Source: Buxus sempervirens (taxonomy: Eukaryota; Streptophyta; Magnoliopsida; Buxales; Buxaceae). From it: a stretch of 64,000 bases of DNA. The stretch lies in contig OX387190.1 of the NCBI GenBank assembly GCA_947561395.2, positions 17,106,858 to 17,170,857 of the forward strand, given 5' to 3'. A model generated the notes under the pieces. The model was not told the DNA's origin and did no database searches. It saw nothing but the letters and a program-made list of their open reading frames with translations. Position 1 is the first letter of the stretch. Each line of letters opens with the position of its first letter. Shown in pieces: positions 2,669 through 62,041 of this stretch. Made by a program: the position numbers and the translations under genes.

Positions 2669-3019
2669 TGTAAAACCCCAGTTTTGAGTAAAATAAAATA
2701 ATAAAATAAAATAAAAATAATAGAATAAAATAAACTAACAGTCACAGTAATAAAAATAAACAAATAATAAGAGTAGATAAAATAAAAATATATGCACATA
2801 TGGATTTATGTACAGGTTAAATCAAATTTATTATTGCTAGAAATTTGTGGTCATTAGTGTTAAAGAAATTGAGGTGGAAATATTAATATGTAAGTAATAT
2901 TCGGACCAGAAATAAATAGAAATTGGTCAATAGTTAAAACCCGGGAAAGCCCTACCTTAATGGGGTGTAGAAAGGGGATTCCGAGGGTAAATGGTGAATT
3001 AGGTTAAACCTTCGCGGTG

Positions 3020-3027
3020 TATAAATA
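3020..3027 (+). promoter_or_regulatory. TATA box of LTR-A copy 1
   Basis: TATAAATA 351 bp into the LTR. Copy 3 has the same box at 33700-33707. TATA boxes in the same orientation occur in LTR-A' (27831-27838), LTR-E (12681-12688, 56639-56646), LTR-D (48869-48876, 57898-57905) and LTR-F (59865-59874), which fixes the LTR direction as TGTAARACCCC to GGGGCGTTACA. Confidence 0.7.
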
Positions 3028-3559
3028 GGTAACTGATATAAAAATTTTCAGGGATTTGGGGGAAGGTTGCTGCTCTGAAATTAGGGCGGATACTGTGGCG
3101 ATTAGGGTTTCGCTGGGAAGAGATGAGAACCGCGAGAGCTACGACTGGATTAGTGGAGTCGGAGATCCAGATTTCAGGGGGTTTTTCCTCTCGTGAGCAG
3201 AGGATCCGTTCGGCTACAGTTGCATCCTCGCGCGCAGCCGGAAGTTGTGCTTGGCCGGTTGTGGAATAAGCTTCTGTTCTGAGATTAAGCGTATACTTGT
3301 GAGTAGCACTGATTTAAAACTGAGGTTTTAGTTTATTCGTGATGTATTTTGAAATGCATGGTCGTATTGTGAGTTCTGGGTTTTTCTGGAATACCGCGAG
3401 TTACGAACGAAGATTGAAAATTAATGTGAAATTAAAGATGTTTAGATTAAATCCAAACTGGGTTGGGAAGTCTTCTAGGAGCATTAGGAGTGTAATGGAG
3501 CAATAACAGACCTAAACAAACCAGCCAGAGTTGGAGATCTCGAAATAACAGAGACTCGA

Positions 3560-57100: not shown

Positions 57101-58470
57101 TATTCCTTAATTATTTATTTTATTTTTAGGAAAATCCAGGGTTTTACACATATGTTGGATTTGTCCAAAAATCATTTTATAATCAAAATCTAGGTATATT
57201 TCCATAAATCAAAAAATCTGGGTTGGACGCTCAAGCGATCGTGTCTAGCGGTCATTGAAACAAAACAGAACAAAACGGGTGCTCAACAAATCTCACAAGC
57301 GATGTATCTAGTGCCCCATGTATTTAACATGAGAGCTCAATAGGGGGGCTCAAGTGACCTGTCTTGCGCCTATATAAAATCGCAATTTCTGGGTTTTTCT
57401 TTAATTCGCGAAATTTCATTCAAAATCCAAATAACATCAATCCAACTCCTCAAATCACTTTTAAACCATATATTTTCAACCTTTGAACATATTAGATCAT
57501 TCTAAACACATCTAAACATAGATTTACAATAAATCTAAATCAAAACCTAAAGAAAATCAATACTTTAATGCATGTTTGACAGTTTTCATAAACCTTTTCC
57601 ATGATCAATCAAACCCACGAATTTTACTTTATAAAATACATAATTTTGCATCTTAATTCATCATACAATAATTCCAAATTAAACCAATCGATTAAACCTA
57701 AACCATACAACAATTAAAAAATTGGGTTGTTACTACTTGCTTTTTGGAAGAATTCCCAAGCCTCCAATCCTTGATCTTTCTCCTTCCTTGTTCTTTTTCT
57801 TCTCCACGATCTCTTTCTCTCTTTCTCTGCTCCTCCAGCCGTATGGATCCACCCAAAGAGAATGATAAAACCCTAATTTCTCTCCATGAAACTTCCTCTT
57901 TTATACACACCCAATAGGAGTCATATCTTATTTAGAAACTTCCTATTCTTCTTCTAACTCCTTCCTCTTAAATCCAATATATTATAAACTCCTATTTCTC
58001 TAATTTTCGTGCTAATTAATTCCCCTATTTTTAAATTTTACGAAACTCCCCAAAACTCCTCTTTTTCATTAACTAAGGCTCCTAATTAATTACAATTACT
58101 AATATGTCCTTTTCTCCCCTTTTATACCATAAATAAAGCTATTTGTATCTAAATTAAACCTGACTTAGTTCTACCTAATTGCTCAAGTTTACTAATTATT
58201 GAATTAATCAAATTAATTATTTAGCTAATTAGGAATTGACCAAAATAGCCTTCTCTTGATAATTTCATATTTAACTGTTGGATTATTTCCAAATTTTCCA
58301 AATGCATTCTCCTTATTATTCTTAATCAATTATACATCCCGGATGGATGAAAAGTACCCTAATTATATACTATATATATAATCTCCAATTTATTTTAATA
58401 AATTCATTATCTTTACAAATATTCAAATTTAATTCTTTTTATTTATTTACTAAAAATTCGGGGCTTCACA

Positions 58471-59631
58471 CTGGGACATCTGTAGTATTCACATTGTATA
58501 CATTCTCCTAGAATGTGGAGGTCAATGCTACTTTTAGGATGCTTATCATGAACTGATACTATACTGCAACATACTGTGATGTGAAGGAGAAAAAGAAACT
58601 TTGGAGAGCTATGTTTAGCAAATGATAAGCCCCTAAAATAAGTTCCATTTTGTCTCAAAGGAAAGCATTAAAAGACTAAATCTATACTATATTTAACGAG
58701 ATAAGGCCCCGTGGGAATCGCGCCAAAAAATTATATCTTTCTTACCCAGAATGACACCACAAATCATTATAAAACTTCAATAATGTAGGGTTATATTTGT
58801 CTTGTCCAGTACAATGCATTTCAAACTCAGACGGTTGCACGTGGTAACAATGAATTTCAAACCCAGACGGTTGCACACGGTTCCCTCCTACTTTGCCTTT
58901 TCGTCAACATTCGACGTTTGCAAACAGTTCCCTCCTGCCTCTCTGTCTATTCGTTCACATCTATTAACTCTTTATGCATCATGTGCACCGTTTCAAAGAA
59001 GACAATCTTAGCACTCAAGCCTCTATGTGCTCTTACTCTTCTGCAAGTGATCCCGACTTTAGGCCGCACTTCTCCAACTCTGATCACATTTTCATCGTGA
59101 AACTTCTACTTGGAAGACAAGTAAGGTTTTTCTATTATTTCCCTCTTTTGTTTCTCTTTATTTATTGTCCAAATTTATAGTCACCATTTCTTCCATCTTG
59201 ATGTTTGATGCATTGAGCCACACCCTACAAAGGTATCTCCTCAAGCACAAGTTATGGTAGAGCAAAAGGTTCCAGACAACATAGATACTTTGCTTCCCAA
59301 TCCTTGTTTGTCATTTTCTTCATCCTCGCTAACATGTATTGTTAATCTTTTCTAGGAATTCATTTTTAATCAAACGAATGGAACTCAGTCTTTCAATGAT
59401 TTTCTCAAACGCAAATTGATGAAGCCATTTCCACAGTCCCCTGTTTAGACGAAGATTGAGTGATTTGAAAAATAGCGTTTCAGCCATATTCAGATCTATA
59501 GGATTTTCCCCCAAAAAAAAACACACACACACACACACACACACACAAAAAAGGAGATTTTCTTGGTTTTTATGTGGCATGATTGCAAGTAACAAGCTTT
59601 TGGGGAGGGATTTTTCTTCCTTCGGAAATTG
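58471..59631. other. Unassigned sequence (possible pre-insertion DNA)
   Basis: Outside every element I could delimit. Moderately AT-rich with no intact gene. TTCAAACTCAGACGGTTGCAC is partly repeated (58818 and 58857). A minus-strand ORF (59329-59595) is not like any protein I know. It continues at 62042 after solo LTR 59632-62041. Confidence 0.4.
59520..59547. repeat. (CA)n microsatellite
   Basis: About 14 CA dinucleotides between A-runs. Confidence 0.95.
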
Positions 59632-62041
59632 TGTAAGACCCCGAATTTTTCCAAATTAATAAATAATATTCTTGAGGATTATATTTGATGGAAATAATTT
59701 ATTACTGTAGGTGATATCGTGATTAGTGGAGATCAGGAGTTTGGCGCAAATCGGACCTTCTGATCGTGAGATATCGAGGTATGATTAATATTTTAAAGTT
59801 GATGTGATATGATTGGGCGATGTGTGTCGAGTTTAATGCATGTGAGTTGCGTGGGATACGAGGGTATATAAATAAGTCACAAAACCTAATGATATATGTT
59901 TGGAATACCTAAACGTATTTTCTCTTGTATTCGCTAGCCGCACGACCAAGAGCGATTGAGAACGACCAGAGAAGAAGGAGAAGAGAAGAGGAAGAAAAGG
60001 AGAGAGTTTCTGGTTGGATTCTTCGTGCTTGGAAGTGTCTTTGCGTTGGTGATATTGTTGGTTAGAGGAAGAGGAGGAACGCACAAATAGAGGTAGGCAG
60101 CACTGTTTTCACCATCGTTTTTGTGTTCTTGGCTTGTTTAATCTCTATGCATGTTTTTATGTTGTAGAAATATGTATTTAGCTTGATATCAATCTTATAA
60201 GTATGTTAGAATCACTCTGAACTTGAAAAATCAGGTTTCGATACACTGTTTTGACATTTTTGGTAGACCGCCGAGCTTACTGTGCTCAGCGCTCCTAGGC
60301 ACTGTTTGGCGCTCATACAAAATTTTAGGTCGCTGTCGAACGCTAACTGATTTGTTGTCGAGGCTAATTTTTTAACTACTGCTGACCTGGACCGCCTGAG
60401 CGTTCCTAGGCGATCCTGAGCGCTCAATGTAGAAAAATCCAATTTTTGCAAATTTAATCCCTGATTCAATTCTAAACCATTTTTAACCAATTTTAATCAA
60501 TAATTAAGATGTTTTAAGACTAAAATAAATTACAAAATATCTGTTTTACAGAAAAATAAAAATAGGGAAGTATTTAGGGTATTAGTTGCCAAGTTTTGCA
60601 ATCAATGAGAAAATCACAGTTTTATGATATATAGACTTATAAATTTGGAATAAATTACTAAGAGATAGGTAAACTTATATTGACAACCAGATTATTATAC
60701 AAAGAATTTCCAGATAAGAATTTCAAACCTAGTTAACCCGGTATTGAGAGAAATTACAGATTTAACCTTTATATGCCGCTAGGCACTATTATTTACAGAA
60801 ATATTAGTCCTTAGGGATTTTTGGTGTCTAGTGGGCATAGCTGGTTTTGGATCCATAGTTTTGGCTAGATAGCTAAGGGATATTTCATTTGGGTTGAGTT
60901 ACTCCCTTGTGTGAACGCGCTTCCTTTGCAAGTTGGGTTGCTCTGGAGGGTCCTATGTCTGGAGGGACACCCCGGTGCTCCGCTGGTGATTCCTTGTACA
61001 TGTGGATAAGTGACCATCTCCATGTATTGATTACGGTGCTGCATGCTGGTGGTTCATGCCAACTCGATTGAGTCGTGTGCAATAAGTCGATGACTACGGC
61101 TCTTATGTAAGGAGATGTCTCGGGTTTGAGTATCATTAGTAGCGTCGCCCCTAAGCCGCATAGTGGTATAGCATATGGTTGAGAGTCATCTCAAACGTGT
61201 ATCTTTTCTTTGTGAGTCTTACAATGATACTGAGATCACAAACACTTACTATTGATACTGTTCACATGCTGGAGGCATGTATTTGATACTATGGTTGGGT
61301 GTGACTGTTTCGTGCATCCCGGTTTTATATTGGATTCTGTTGTTGATTTCTGAATCATGATCTTTGATATACATGATATTGTTCACTGATACTTAAACTG
61401 TTTTATATGTTGTTTTGTATTCCATGATCGTTATGAATGTTTATACGAGCCTGTTTACTCGAGACTGCTTATTCGTGCATGAATATCTATTTTGTATATA
61501 TGAACTATTTATAGCATGTATGTGTTACCTACTGAGATATTCGTATCTCACCCTACTTCTCATTTTATTTTTTAGCTAATACGCGAGAGGGGGATCCTAG
61601 TGGGGATTTCCAGAGTGAGCAAGTTGATTTTCGCCGGAGGAGTTCTATTATCCTGACTTTATCTGAGGTCAAGGAGAGATGACATTATGAGACTTTGACA
61701 GTGATTTTTAATTATTTGGTTTTGATGTATCTGAGAGATTGAGAGCTTTTAGTAACACTTTGATACCAGACTTGATTGATGATTTGGATTGGATGGTTTC
61801 ATTTATTTCCATGATTATGATGATGTTAGGCTACACTTCCCCACATTGATGTTTCCGCACTCTGATAGTTATTGATAAATGGATTATTTAATTTTTCAGT
61901 CCGGTTTATTATGATGATTGATTTGATATGGGCCCAGTAGCATCTCGAATTCGGTTGTTGAGCTGGATTCGGGTTGTTACAGTAGAGAATCGGATTCGGG
62001 TCAGGTGCTGGTTTGCATTGACCCAGGTTTAGGGCATTACA
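59632..62041 (+). mobile_element. Solo LTR, family LTR-F, copy 1
   Basis: Ends TGTAAGACCCCGAATTTTTC and AGGGCATTACA with exact duplication AATTG (59627-59631, 62042-62046). It has TATATAAATA (59865-59874), donor-like AGAG/GTAGGC (60093), CpG-rich block (60255-60425), the module shared with LTR-E (about 60840-61180) and pre-acceptor block GAGATATTCGTATCTCA...TTTTTTAG (61505-61575). No coding content. Confidence 0.9.

Follow-up and report, generated by a model that had tools for sequence, protein, structure and literature searches.

LTRs of the window and their acceptor-side blocks

The stretch analyzed here, referred to as the window, comprises 64,000 nt of Buxus sempervirens DNA (assembly GCA_947561395.2, contig OX387190.1, positions 17,106,858–17,170,857, forward strand). 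It contains retrotransposon long terminal repeats (LTRs) of several families. Their termini are TG...CA, and A1, A2, D1, E1, F, and G are bordered by matching 5-bp flanks; they are therefore complete LTRs, nested in one another. We describe a candidate intron inside these LTRs, of which the first 11 nt (the donor block, +1 to +11) can pair, as the 11-bp helix P1, with a word (the arm) located directly before a hairpin, P2, near the 3' splice site. The P1 strands are 1.3–2.7 kb apart, and 4.8 kb apart in LTR G. The LTRs, blocks, and structural elements are as follows:

2669–5858, plus strand: LTR A1, solo, 5-bp flanks GGTGG; proposed intron 3299–5650
3299–3309, plus strand: A1 5' splice site and P1 5' strand, GTGAGTAGCAC, complement of the arm
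5595–5605, plus strand: A1 P1 3' strand, GTGCTGCTCAC; among 3370 upstream positions, the donor is the best-scoring partner of this arm
5606–5623, plus strand: A1 hairpin P2, UGGGAUA-UUCG-UAUCUCA, its final A the proposed branch point; the acceptor CAG ends at 5650
33352–36625, plus strand: LTR A2, solo, flanks CAAGT; proposed intron 33968–36418
33968–33978 with 36363–36373, plus strand: A2 P1; P2 at 36374–36391
15179–17930, minus strand: LTR A3; proposed intron 17359–15383, with gag (14475–13408) after it
17359–17349 with 15438–15428, minus strand: A3 P1; P2 at 15427–15410
25857–27973, minus strand: LTR B; proposed intron 27600–26198; donor GTGAGTTGTAT pairs at 9/11 positions
26247–26237, minus strand: B P1 arm; P2, partly decayed, at 26236–26219
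46189–49407, minus strand: LTR D1, solo, flanks ATAGG; proposed intron 48622–46536
48622–48612 with 46590–46580, minus strand: D1 P1; P2 at 46579–46562
59632–62041, plus strand: LTR E1, solo, flanks AATTG; proposed intron 60093–61575; donor GTAGGCAGCAC pairs at 10/11 positions
61522–61532, plus strand: E1 P1 arm; P2 at 61533–61550
10267–13268, minus strand: LTR F, solo, flanks AACAG; proposed GC-AG intron 12387–10587; donor GCAAGTAGTAA pairs at 10/11 positions
10635–10625, minus strand: F P1 arm; P2, with a GUAA loop, at 10624–10609
51203–57148, minus strand: LTR G, flanks ATATG, with a nested insertion inside
56307–56297, minus strand: G donor block, ACAAGTAGCAA, with A at +1; arm at 51505–51495, P2 at 51494–51480
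28620–28684, minus strand: acceptor block C, with no certain donor
25009–25067, plus strand: acceptor block H, with arm GTGTTGCTTTC and P2 UGAGAC-AUUC-GUCUCA; no donor was identified, and another LTR abuts the block upstream

The initial annotation had reported ten acceptor-side blocks near LTR 3' ends, and all ten are present where it placed them. A covariance model of the block (61 positions), built from seven window blocks and with block 25009–25067 left out, retrieved exactly these ten in the window at E ≤ 1 and no other; the E-values ranged from 1e-11 to 3e-6, that of the left-out block included. In an acceptor alignment of eight families, conservation was high between the GCATG word and the branch-like UCUCA and lower outside, which clearly bears out the claim that the block is better conserved than its flanks. 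Among the three A copies, the acceptor block is identical at 64/64 positions and the donor at 11/11, with 60–71% of columns agreeing in the surrounding region, and the suggestion that the blocks are held by selection is supported.

The exon junctions predicted earlier (3298/5651, 33967/36419, and 60092/61576) fit introns 3299–5650, 33968–36418, and 60093–61575, and the TATA box proposed upstream of the donor block has a counterpart in the seven LTRs measured, where the nearest TATA-like word lies 228–301 nt 5' of the donor. The likely donor of block 26198 is at 27600 and that of block 51454 at 56307; block 28617 has only a weak candidate at 30904 (score 8.0), and no donor was found upstream of block 25008. 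The idea of an intron inside the LTR is well supported by the donor, branch-site, and YAG signature and the first-exon composition described below, but the hairpin is not the lone oddity before the acceptor that it had been taken for: it is half of a larger structure. What had been overlooked is that the donor block and the word just 5' of the hairpin are reverse complements that change together between families.

The donor is complementary to the arm

The best 11-nt complement was sought upstream of every block without regard to splice-site rules. It was the donor block at +1 in A1, A2, A3, D1, and G, and the same register one base earlier in F; the E1 donor ranked second, and no donor surfaced for B, C, or H. 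The B donor, which was not among the top complements, was located by the likeness of its first exon (GCGTATA). With the register fixed, the donor ranked first of the 3370 upstream positions for its arm in A2, A3, B, D1, and F as in A1, and in E1 the highest score was shared by the donor and position 59707, which precedes the TATA-like word. At 59707 the word GTAGGTGATAT, which is complementary to the arm of E, occurs a second time; a similar site lies ~390 nt before the donor in L035, one of the loci fetched from the genome. P2 follows the P1 arm with no gap, so that in unspliced RNA the two helices can stack continuously, their junction coinciding with the exon/intron boundary. The isolated energy of P1 is −9 to −18 kcal/mol, and the helix covers the whole intronic U1 site.

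A structural descriptor consisting of a GYRRGT donor, arm, hairpin, branch-like site, AG-free tract, and YAG was matched at a score of at least 9.5 by six window LTRs (A1, A2, A3, D1, F, and E1) and by 0 in 40 Markov-resampled windows; at a score of at least 8.5 there were 3 in the 40. E1 matches through site 59707, and five LTRs plus E1 is the fairer statement of this count.

Genomic loci were fetched as 20 of ~100 listed places from each of three genome searches; one fetch used contigs C1 and C3, and another, chosen to sample arms, C1 only. Fifty loci, 40 fetched from the genome and the ten of the window, entered an arm-complement test in which 3 kb was searched. The best complement of the arm fell on a GYRRGT in 40/50 loci, compared with 0.4% for permuted arms; 38/50, at the likely donor, is the fairer count because E1 and L035 match through a site upstream of the proposed donor. 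The misses, all kept in the counts, were L037–L040, L043, L045, L059, G, C, and H; G was missed because its donor is more than 3 kb from the arm and so fell outside the searched range. Two of the loci, L057 and L058, are weak. When the donor was instead chosen independently of the arm, as a GYRRGT with GCATG at +54 to +65, 29 of 31 loci had a single candidate and the other two had two candidates. Twenty-five of these 29 donors pair with their arms at 11/11 positions, and the others at 10, 9, 8, and 7. Own arms scored 10.0, against 8.90 (standard deviation 0.19) for swapped arms, and 0/2000 swaps reached the observed value.

The reverse test started from 20 A donors chosen by donor alone. In 17 of them the best downstream complement led to a 7-bp hairpin, branch site, and YAG; the other three had no partner in the stretch, that of L073 perhaps lying past the stretch end. 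The branch site and YAG carry much of this result, since 24% of random positions pass the hairpin test alone.

Donor and arm covary between families

The donor variants GUGAG, GUAGG, GCAAG, GCGAG, and GUAAG are matched between families by arms CUCAC, CCUAC, CUUGC, CUCGC, and CUUAC, and G-U partners are also present (GUGAG with CUCGC or CUUGC). In the window rows (seven distinct of eight, with blocks C and H left out), P1 pairs in 94.8% of cells, and 6/11 pairs have changed on both sides. Inclusion of genome copies gave 18 distinct rows, in which 8/11 P1 pairs have changed on both sides. For P1 and P2 together these rows contain 26 cells changed on both sides, compared with 8.7 in shuffles, and the covariation score was reached by 0/500 shuffles. 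Sliding the partner by 1–3 columns, a control that keeps shared descent, lowered pairing in the 18 rows from 94.8% to 26–52%. The pair at +1 varies only in G, whose donor row was located in both sets with help from the arm. The donors mostly remain G[U/C]RRGU while changing, as expected if U1 and the arm both constrain the donor. P2 is identical in most copies; in addition to the H hairpin listed above, its variants are UGAGA-UUUAU-UCUCA in G and UAAGAU-GUAA-AUCUCA, with one A-C mismatch, in F, and it has decayed in B and C.

Splice-site signature and composition of the proposed intron

The donor is GYRRGT in A, B, D, and F, the exceptions being E (GTAGGC) and G (ACAAGT). Two hallmarks of a U2-type intron were found, namely a GT or GC donor fitting U1, and a branch site followed by an AG-free pyrimidine tract ending in YAG. 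The 3' end of P2 is UCUCAY in most copies, a branch-like site conforming to YUNAY, the plant branch-site consensus, and in most copies a YAG follows it by 20–32 nt with no AG between. In the 40 fetched loci, the first AG more than 4 nt past the branch site is CAG in 37 and TAG, AAG, and GAG in one each, and the mean pyrimidine fraction of the tract is 0.77. The search pattern for L031–L070 included YUNAY at the P2 base; that for L071–L090 did not, and in these loci it was found in 17/20. Immediately upstream of the donor the sequence varies more, with AG at −2,−1 in 21/33 loci. Intron length in 33 loci is 1392–2783 nt, with a median of 1562.

For composition measures, transcription was assumed to start 32 nt past the start of the TATA-like word. 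The first exons of seven LTRs have a GC fraction of 0.42–0.53 and a T fraction of 0.22–0.30, and the introns 0.36–0.42 and 0.33–0.36, respectively; such a contrast with the intron was not seen for the second exon. Each of the seven introns contains 33–65 AUGs, and the first exons contain 0–8. In three of the seven LTRs (A2, A3, and F), a short open reading frame (ORF) terminates 8–10 nt 5' of the donor.

A GCATG word follows the donor at +57 to +63 in six of the seven LTRs measured and at +34 in F, and at +55 to +60 in 14/14 D/E-type loci with a donor. GCATG words occur at window positions 3356, 34029, 17297, 27542, 48566, and 60149, and just before each arm. They may pair with one another (TGCATG with CATGCA) or bind protein. 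A third helix between TGCATG after the donor and CATGCA before the arm was considered and rejected: the words are near-invariant and so lend it no covariation support, and they could equally be a protein site.

Predicted folding

For the window LTRs, the folded sequence extended 40 nt into exon 1 and 20 nt into exon 2. In A3, D1, and F the minimum-energy structure contains P1, with a probability near 1 (10/11 pairs in F). The 33 of the 40 fetched loci with a donor were also folded, and P1 (at least 8/11 pairs) is present in the minimum-energy fold of 26/33, with arms 1.3–2.7 kb apart; because L035 used its upstream site, 25/32 is the fairer count. P2 (at least 5/7 pairs) is present in the minimum-energy fold of 22 of the 33.

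Genome abundance and the search for spliced copies

The D/E version of the block occurs at 4806 places within three mismatches in the 676.5-Mb genome, with 0 for the reversed control, and the pattern with other arms at 2909 exact places; the two sets overlap partly (4/20 checked) and are not additive. The unspliced A donor junction occurs at 289 genome places within three mismatches, and a spliced A junction of equal length at 0, a comparison made for family A only. Among 20 A donors examined, 16 carry the second exon of the spliced probe and two (L077 and L089) another; the fair denominator is therefore somewhat below 289. A spliced-junction search inside the window gave best ungapped matches of 17–20 of 28, and nothing real. 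In standard reverse transcription, the sequence between cap and primer site is copied into both new LTRs, and spliced genomic RNA would therefore give intronless LTRs. Were the poly(A) site downstream of the acceptor, early strand transfer would be an exception to this erasure of the intron.

Element identity and other features of the window

The ORF at 1226–2623 contains RT_RNaseH followed by RVT_3, that is, a second, archaeal-type RNase H after RH, which is the order that characterizes the Tat clade according to the accessible part of PMC6317226. By its collinearity, this ORF appears to belong to the same element as LTR A3, with A1 and F inserted between them; if so, the RNase H and second RNase H-like domain point to the Tat clade. 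This clade test covered the family A element only. A TGG word, possibly marking a primer site, lies 12 nt after LTR A3. A gag protein search returned no match at E 0.001, no pol relative was confirmed in viral contigs, and the exact 19-mer of the hairpin occurred 0 times among them. Scans of the window with Rfam (no match at gathering scores) and for tRNAs (none) were negative.

Three donors without an acceptor block of their own and one further ORF were also recorded:

44616–44626, minus strand: donor D2, GTAGGTAACAT
24452–24462, minus strand: donor E2, GTAGGTGACAC
57730–57740, minus strand: donor G2, GCAAGTAGTAA
37498–39438, plus strand: Transposase_21 (tnp2) ORF, 646 aa, CACTA-type by name

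The A-family LTRs are mosaic in the three copies, with a 3' part (from ~4770 in A1) that is 82–100% identical per 60-column window and a 5' part that is 35–88% identical. Some A donors (L061, L077, and L089) are accompanied by an acceptor half of another type. At L037 (C1:25743073–25746000), where no donor was found, the acceptor block occurs three times at a spacing of 1158–1159 bp; these repeats are perhaps a tandem array derived from part of an LTR.

A possible brake on splicing and alternative explanations

We consider it moderately probable that the LTRs of these Tat-like Ty3/gypsy elements hold a U2-type intron whose splicing is braked by P1 and P2, leaving a fraction of the RNA full length. 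The LTR-internal intron is well supported by sequence, and splicing itself is predicted. Complementarity, covariation, the splice-site signature, abundance, and the absence of spliced A copies are established from the DNA; we infer that splicing takes place, that P1 slows it, and that two RNA pools are so divided. The promoter would be followed, still within the LTR, by both splice sites of a 1.4–2.8 kb intron. Before splicing, positions +1 to +11 of the 5' splice site would pair with the 11-nt word abutting the 5–7 bp hairpin P2, the base of which would carry the likely branch-point A. Coaxial stacking of P1 on P2 would bring the phosphate of the exon/intron boundary and the branch A together at a single junction and bury the U1-binding site. 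Splicing would be held down and a full-length fraction packaged and copied, and the remaining RNA would lose a leader rich in upstream AUGs and be translated. A brake on U1 binding, with the branch A sequestered at the P2 base, is favored because P1 covers the whole intronic U1 site at the energies given above, and retention of a consensus donor suggests that the element needs some splicing. Since it is present only in unspliced RNA, the structure could also mark RNA for packaging. With somewhat less assurance, we suggest a cis-acting RNA lock, in which a built-in U1 mimic coevolves with its own donor, sorts copied from translated transcripts, and marks the unspliced RNA.

Several observations weigh against this braking model. 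P1 is absent from the minimum-energy fold of B and E1 and from that of 7/33 genomic loci. The covariation of P2 alone is weak (1/7 pairs in the window rows, 0/5 in the 18 rows), and P2 was fixed by the search pattern in L031–L070. One of five covariation measures, further pair types, was reached by 383/500 shuffles for the window rows and 20/500 for the 18 rows, and the shuffles leave shared descent uncorrected. The A at +1 in G is paired to U in the arm; this donor would be dead while the helix persists, so that either both sides have decayed or the helix is maintained in the absence of a donor. The lack of spliced A copies may mean either that spliced RNA is not copied or that there is no splicing at all. 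By analogy with yeast RPS17B, in which pairing that joins the intron ends promotes splicing, the effect of P1 could be the opposite.

Such an opposite effect, in which P1 and P2 loop out the long intron and set the donor beside the branch site for efficient splicing, is in our estimate unlikely. The geometry, with both reactive groups at one junction, speaks for it, but a helix over +1 to +11 at −9 to −18 kcal/mol should hinder U1. Genomic RNA would have to escape splicing otherwise, for example through a second promoter downstream of the donor, and the accessible text of PMC3735527 describes different TATA boxes for the translated and packaged RNAs of BARE. It is more doubtful still that the structure is mainly a packaging or dimerization mark confined to unspliced RNA, with Gag selecting full-length RNA and the GCATGC words possibly aiding dimers. 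A helix that ends exactly at +1 over a consensus donor would be left unexplained by such a mark, even though P1 links both intron ends and is lost on splicing, and GCATG words lie at similar distances from both intron ends. Retroviral precedents point both ways in the portion of PMC9142903 available: the packaging signal of human immunodeficiency virus type 1 (HIV-1) follows the donor and marks unspliced RNA, whereas key packaging sequences of HIV-2 precede it.

A helix that closes a long leader for a ribosome shunt, with no splicing, seems very improbable. Ribosomes shunt over long leaders in plant pararetroviruses, and the LTRs do contain an AUG-rich stretch of 1.4–2.5 kb closed by a base stem; the short ORFs of A2, A3, and F also stop 8–10 nt before this stem, about the distance typical of shunting. 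However, in A1, B, and D1 the final stop upstream of the stem is at −29, −55, and −63, respectively, and E1 has no AUG there. With so inconstant a stop-to-stem distance, and with the donor consensus, branch-like site, AG-free tract, and YAG unexplained, the shunt was set aside. We give hardly any credence to elements acting as DNA, either a palindromic transcription-factor site or terminal inverted repeats. Donor and arm change together at eight positions, which is unexpected for a fixed DNA site, and different hairpins replace the palindrome in F, G, and H; these readings were set aside on both grounds, although GATATTCGTATC is near-palindromic in most copies seen and each of the three A LTRs has a half copy (TGAGATAYGAA) ~233 nt 5' of the block, at 5356, 36123, and 15678. 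The GATACG half sites are presumably GARP/LUX-like and GCATG RY-like.

Relation to known systems

Plant LTR elements are generally intronless, with Ogre and EVADE as notable exceptions, according to the accessible part of a 2025 review (PMC12786077); Bagy2, Ogre, and CRR are named as spliced elements in the available text of PMC3735527. Ogre, a Tat-clade Ty3/gypsy element of Medicago and pea, is a related plant element with a functional intron. Unlike in Ogre, both proposed splice sites of the Buxus elements are in the LTR rather than in the coding region, and the donor is base-paired. In Ogre the intron interrupts the coding part of the element and lies between PRO and RT. In human T-cell leukemia virus type 1 and bovine leukemia virus, the 5' splice site is in R, inefficient splicing keeps genomic RNA, and the acceptors are outside the LTR; a donor in the LTR is thus common to those viruses and the Buxus elements, but only in the latter is the acceptor also inside. 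For the gag/pol intron of BARE1, a barley Ty1/copia element, splicing helps divide RNA between translation and copying, and spliced retrotransposon RNA must not be packaged or reverse-transcribed; unlike the intron proposed here, that of BARE1 is 104 nt and lies beside the gag end, and the passages of PMC3735527 at hand mention neither an LTR intron nor a long-range helix. In yeast RPS17B, pairing likewise joins the intron 5' end and the branch site and promotes splicing, but the paired segments are downstream of a 5' splice site left free, whereas here the splice site itself is paired from +1 (PMC2536676, as far as its accessible text goes). No report of an LTR-internal intron was found among the literature matches listed, with most subscription papers outside the coverage; the single match of one LTR-intron search, judged from the part accessible, was a gene called ltrB.

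Retroelements must both translate and copy one RNA, and an intron in the LTR sharpens this conflict, since spliced RNA should write intronless LTRs. A covarying helix over the donor would be a simple and directly testable answer, present in thousands of copies. If true, these LTRs would provide a plant example, backed by comparative evidence, in which long-range RNA structure governs a splice site.

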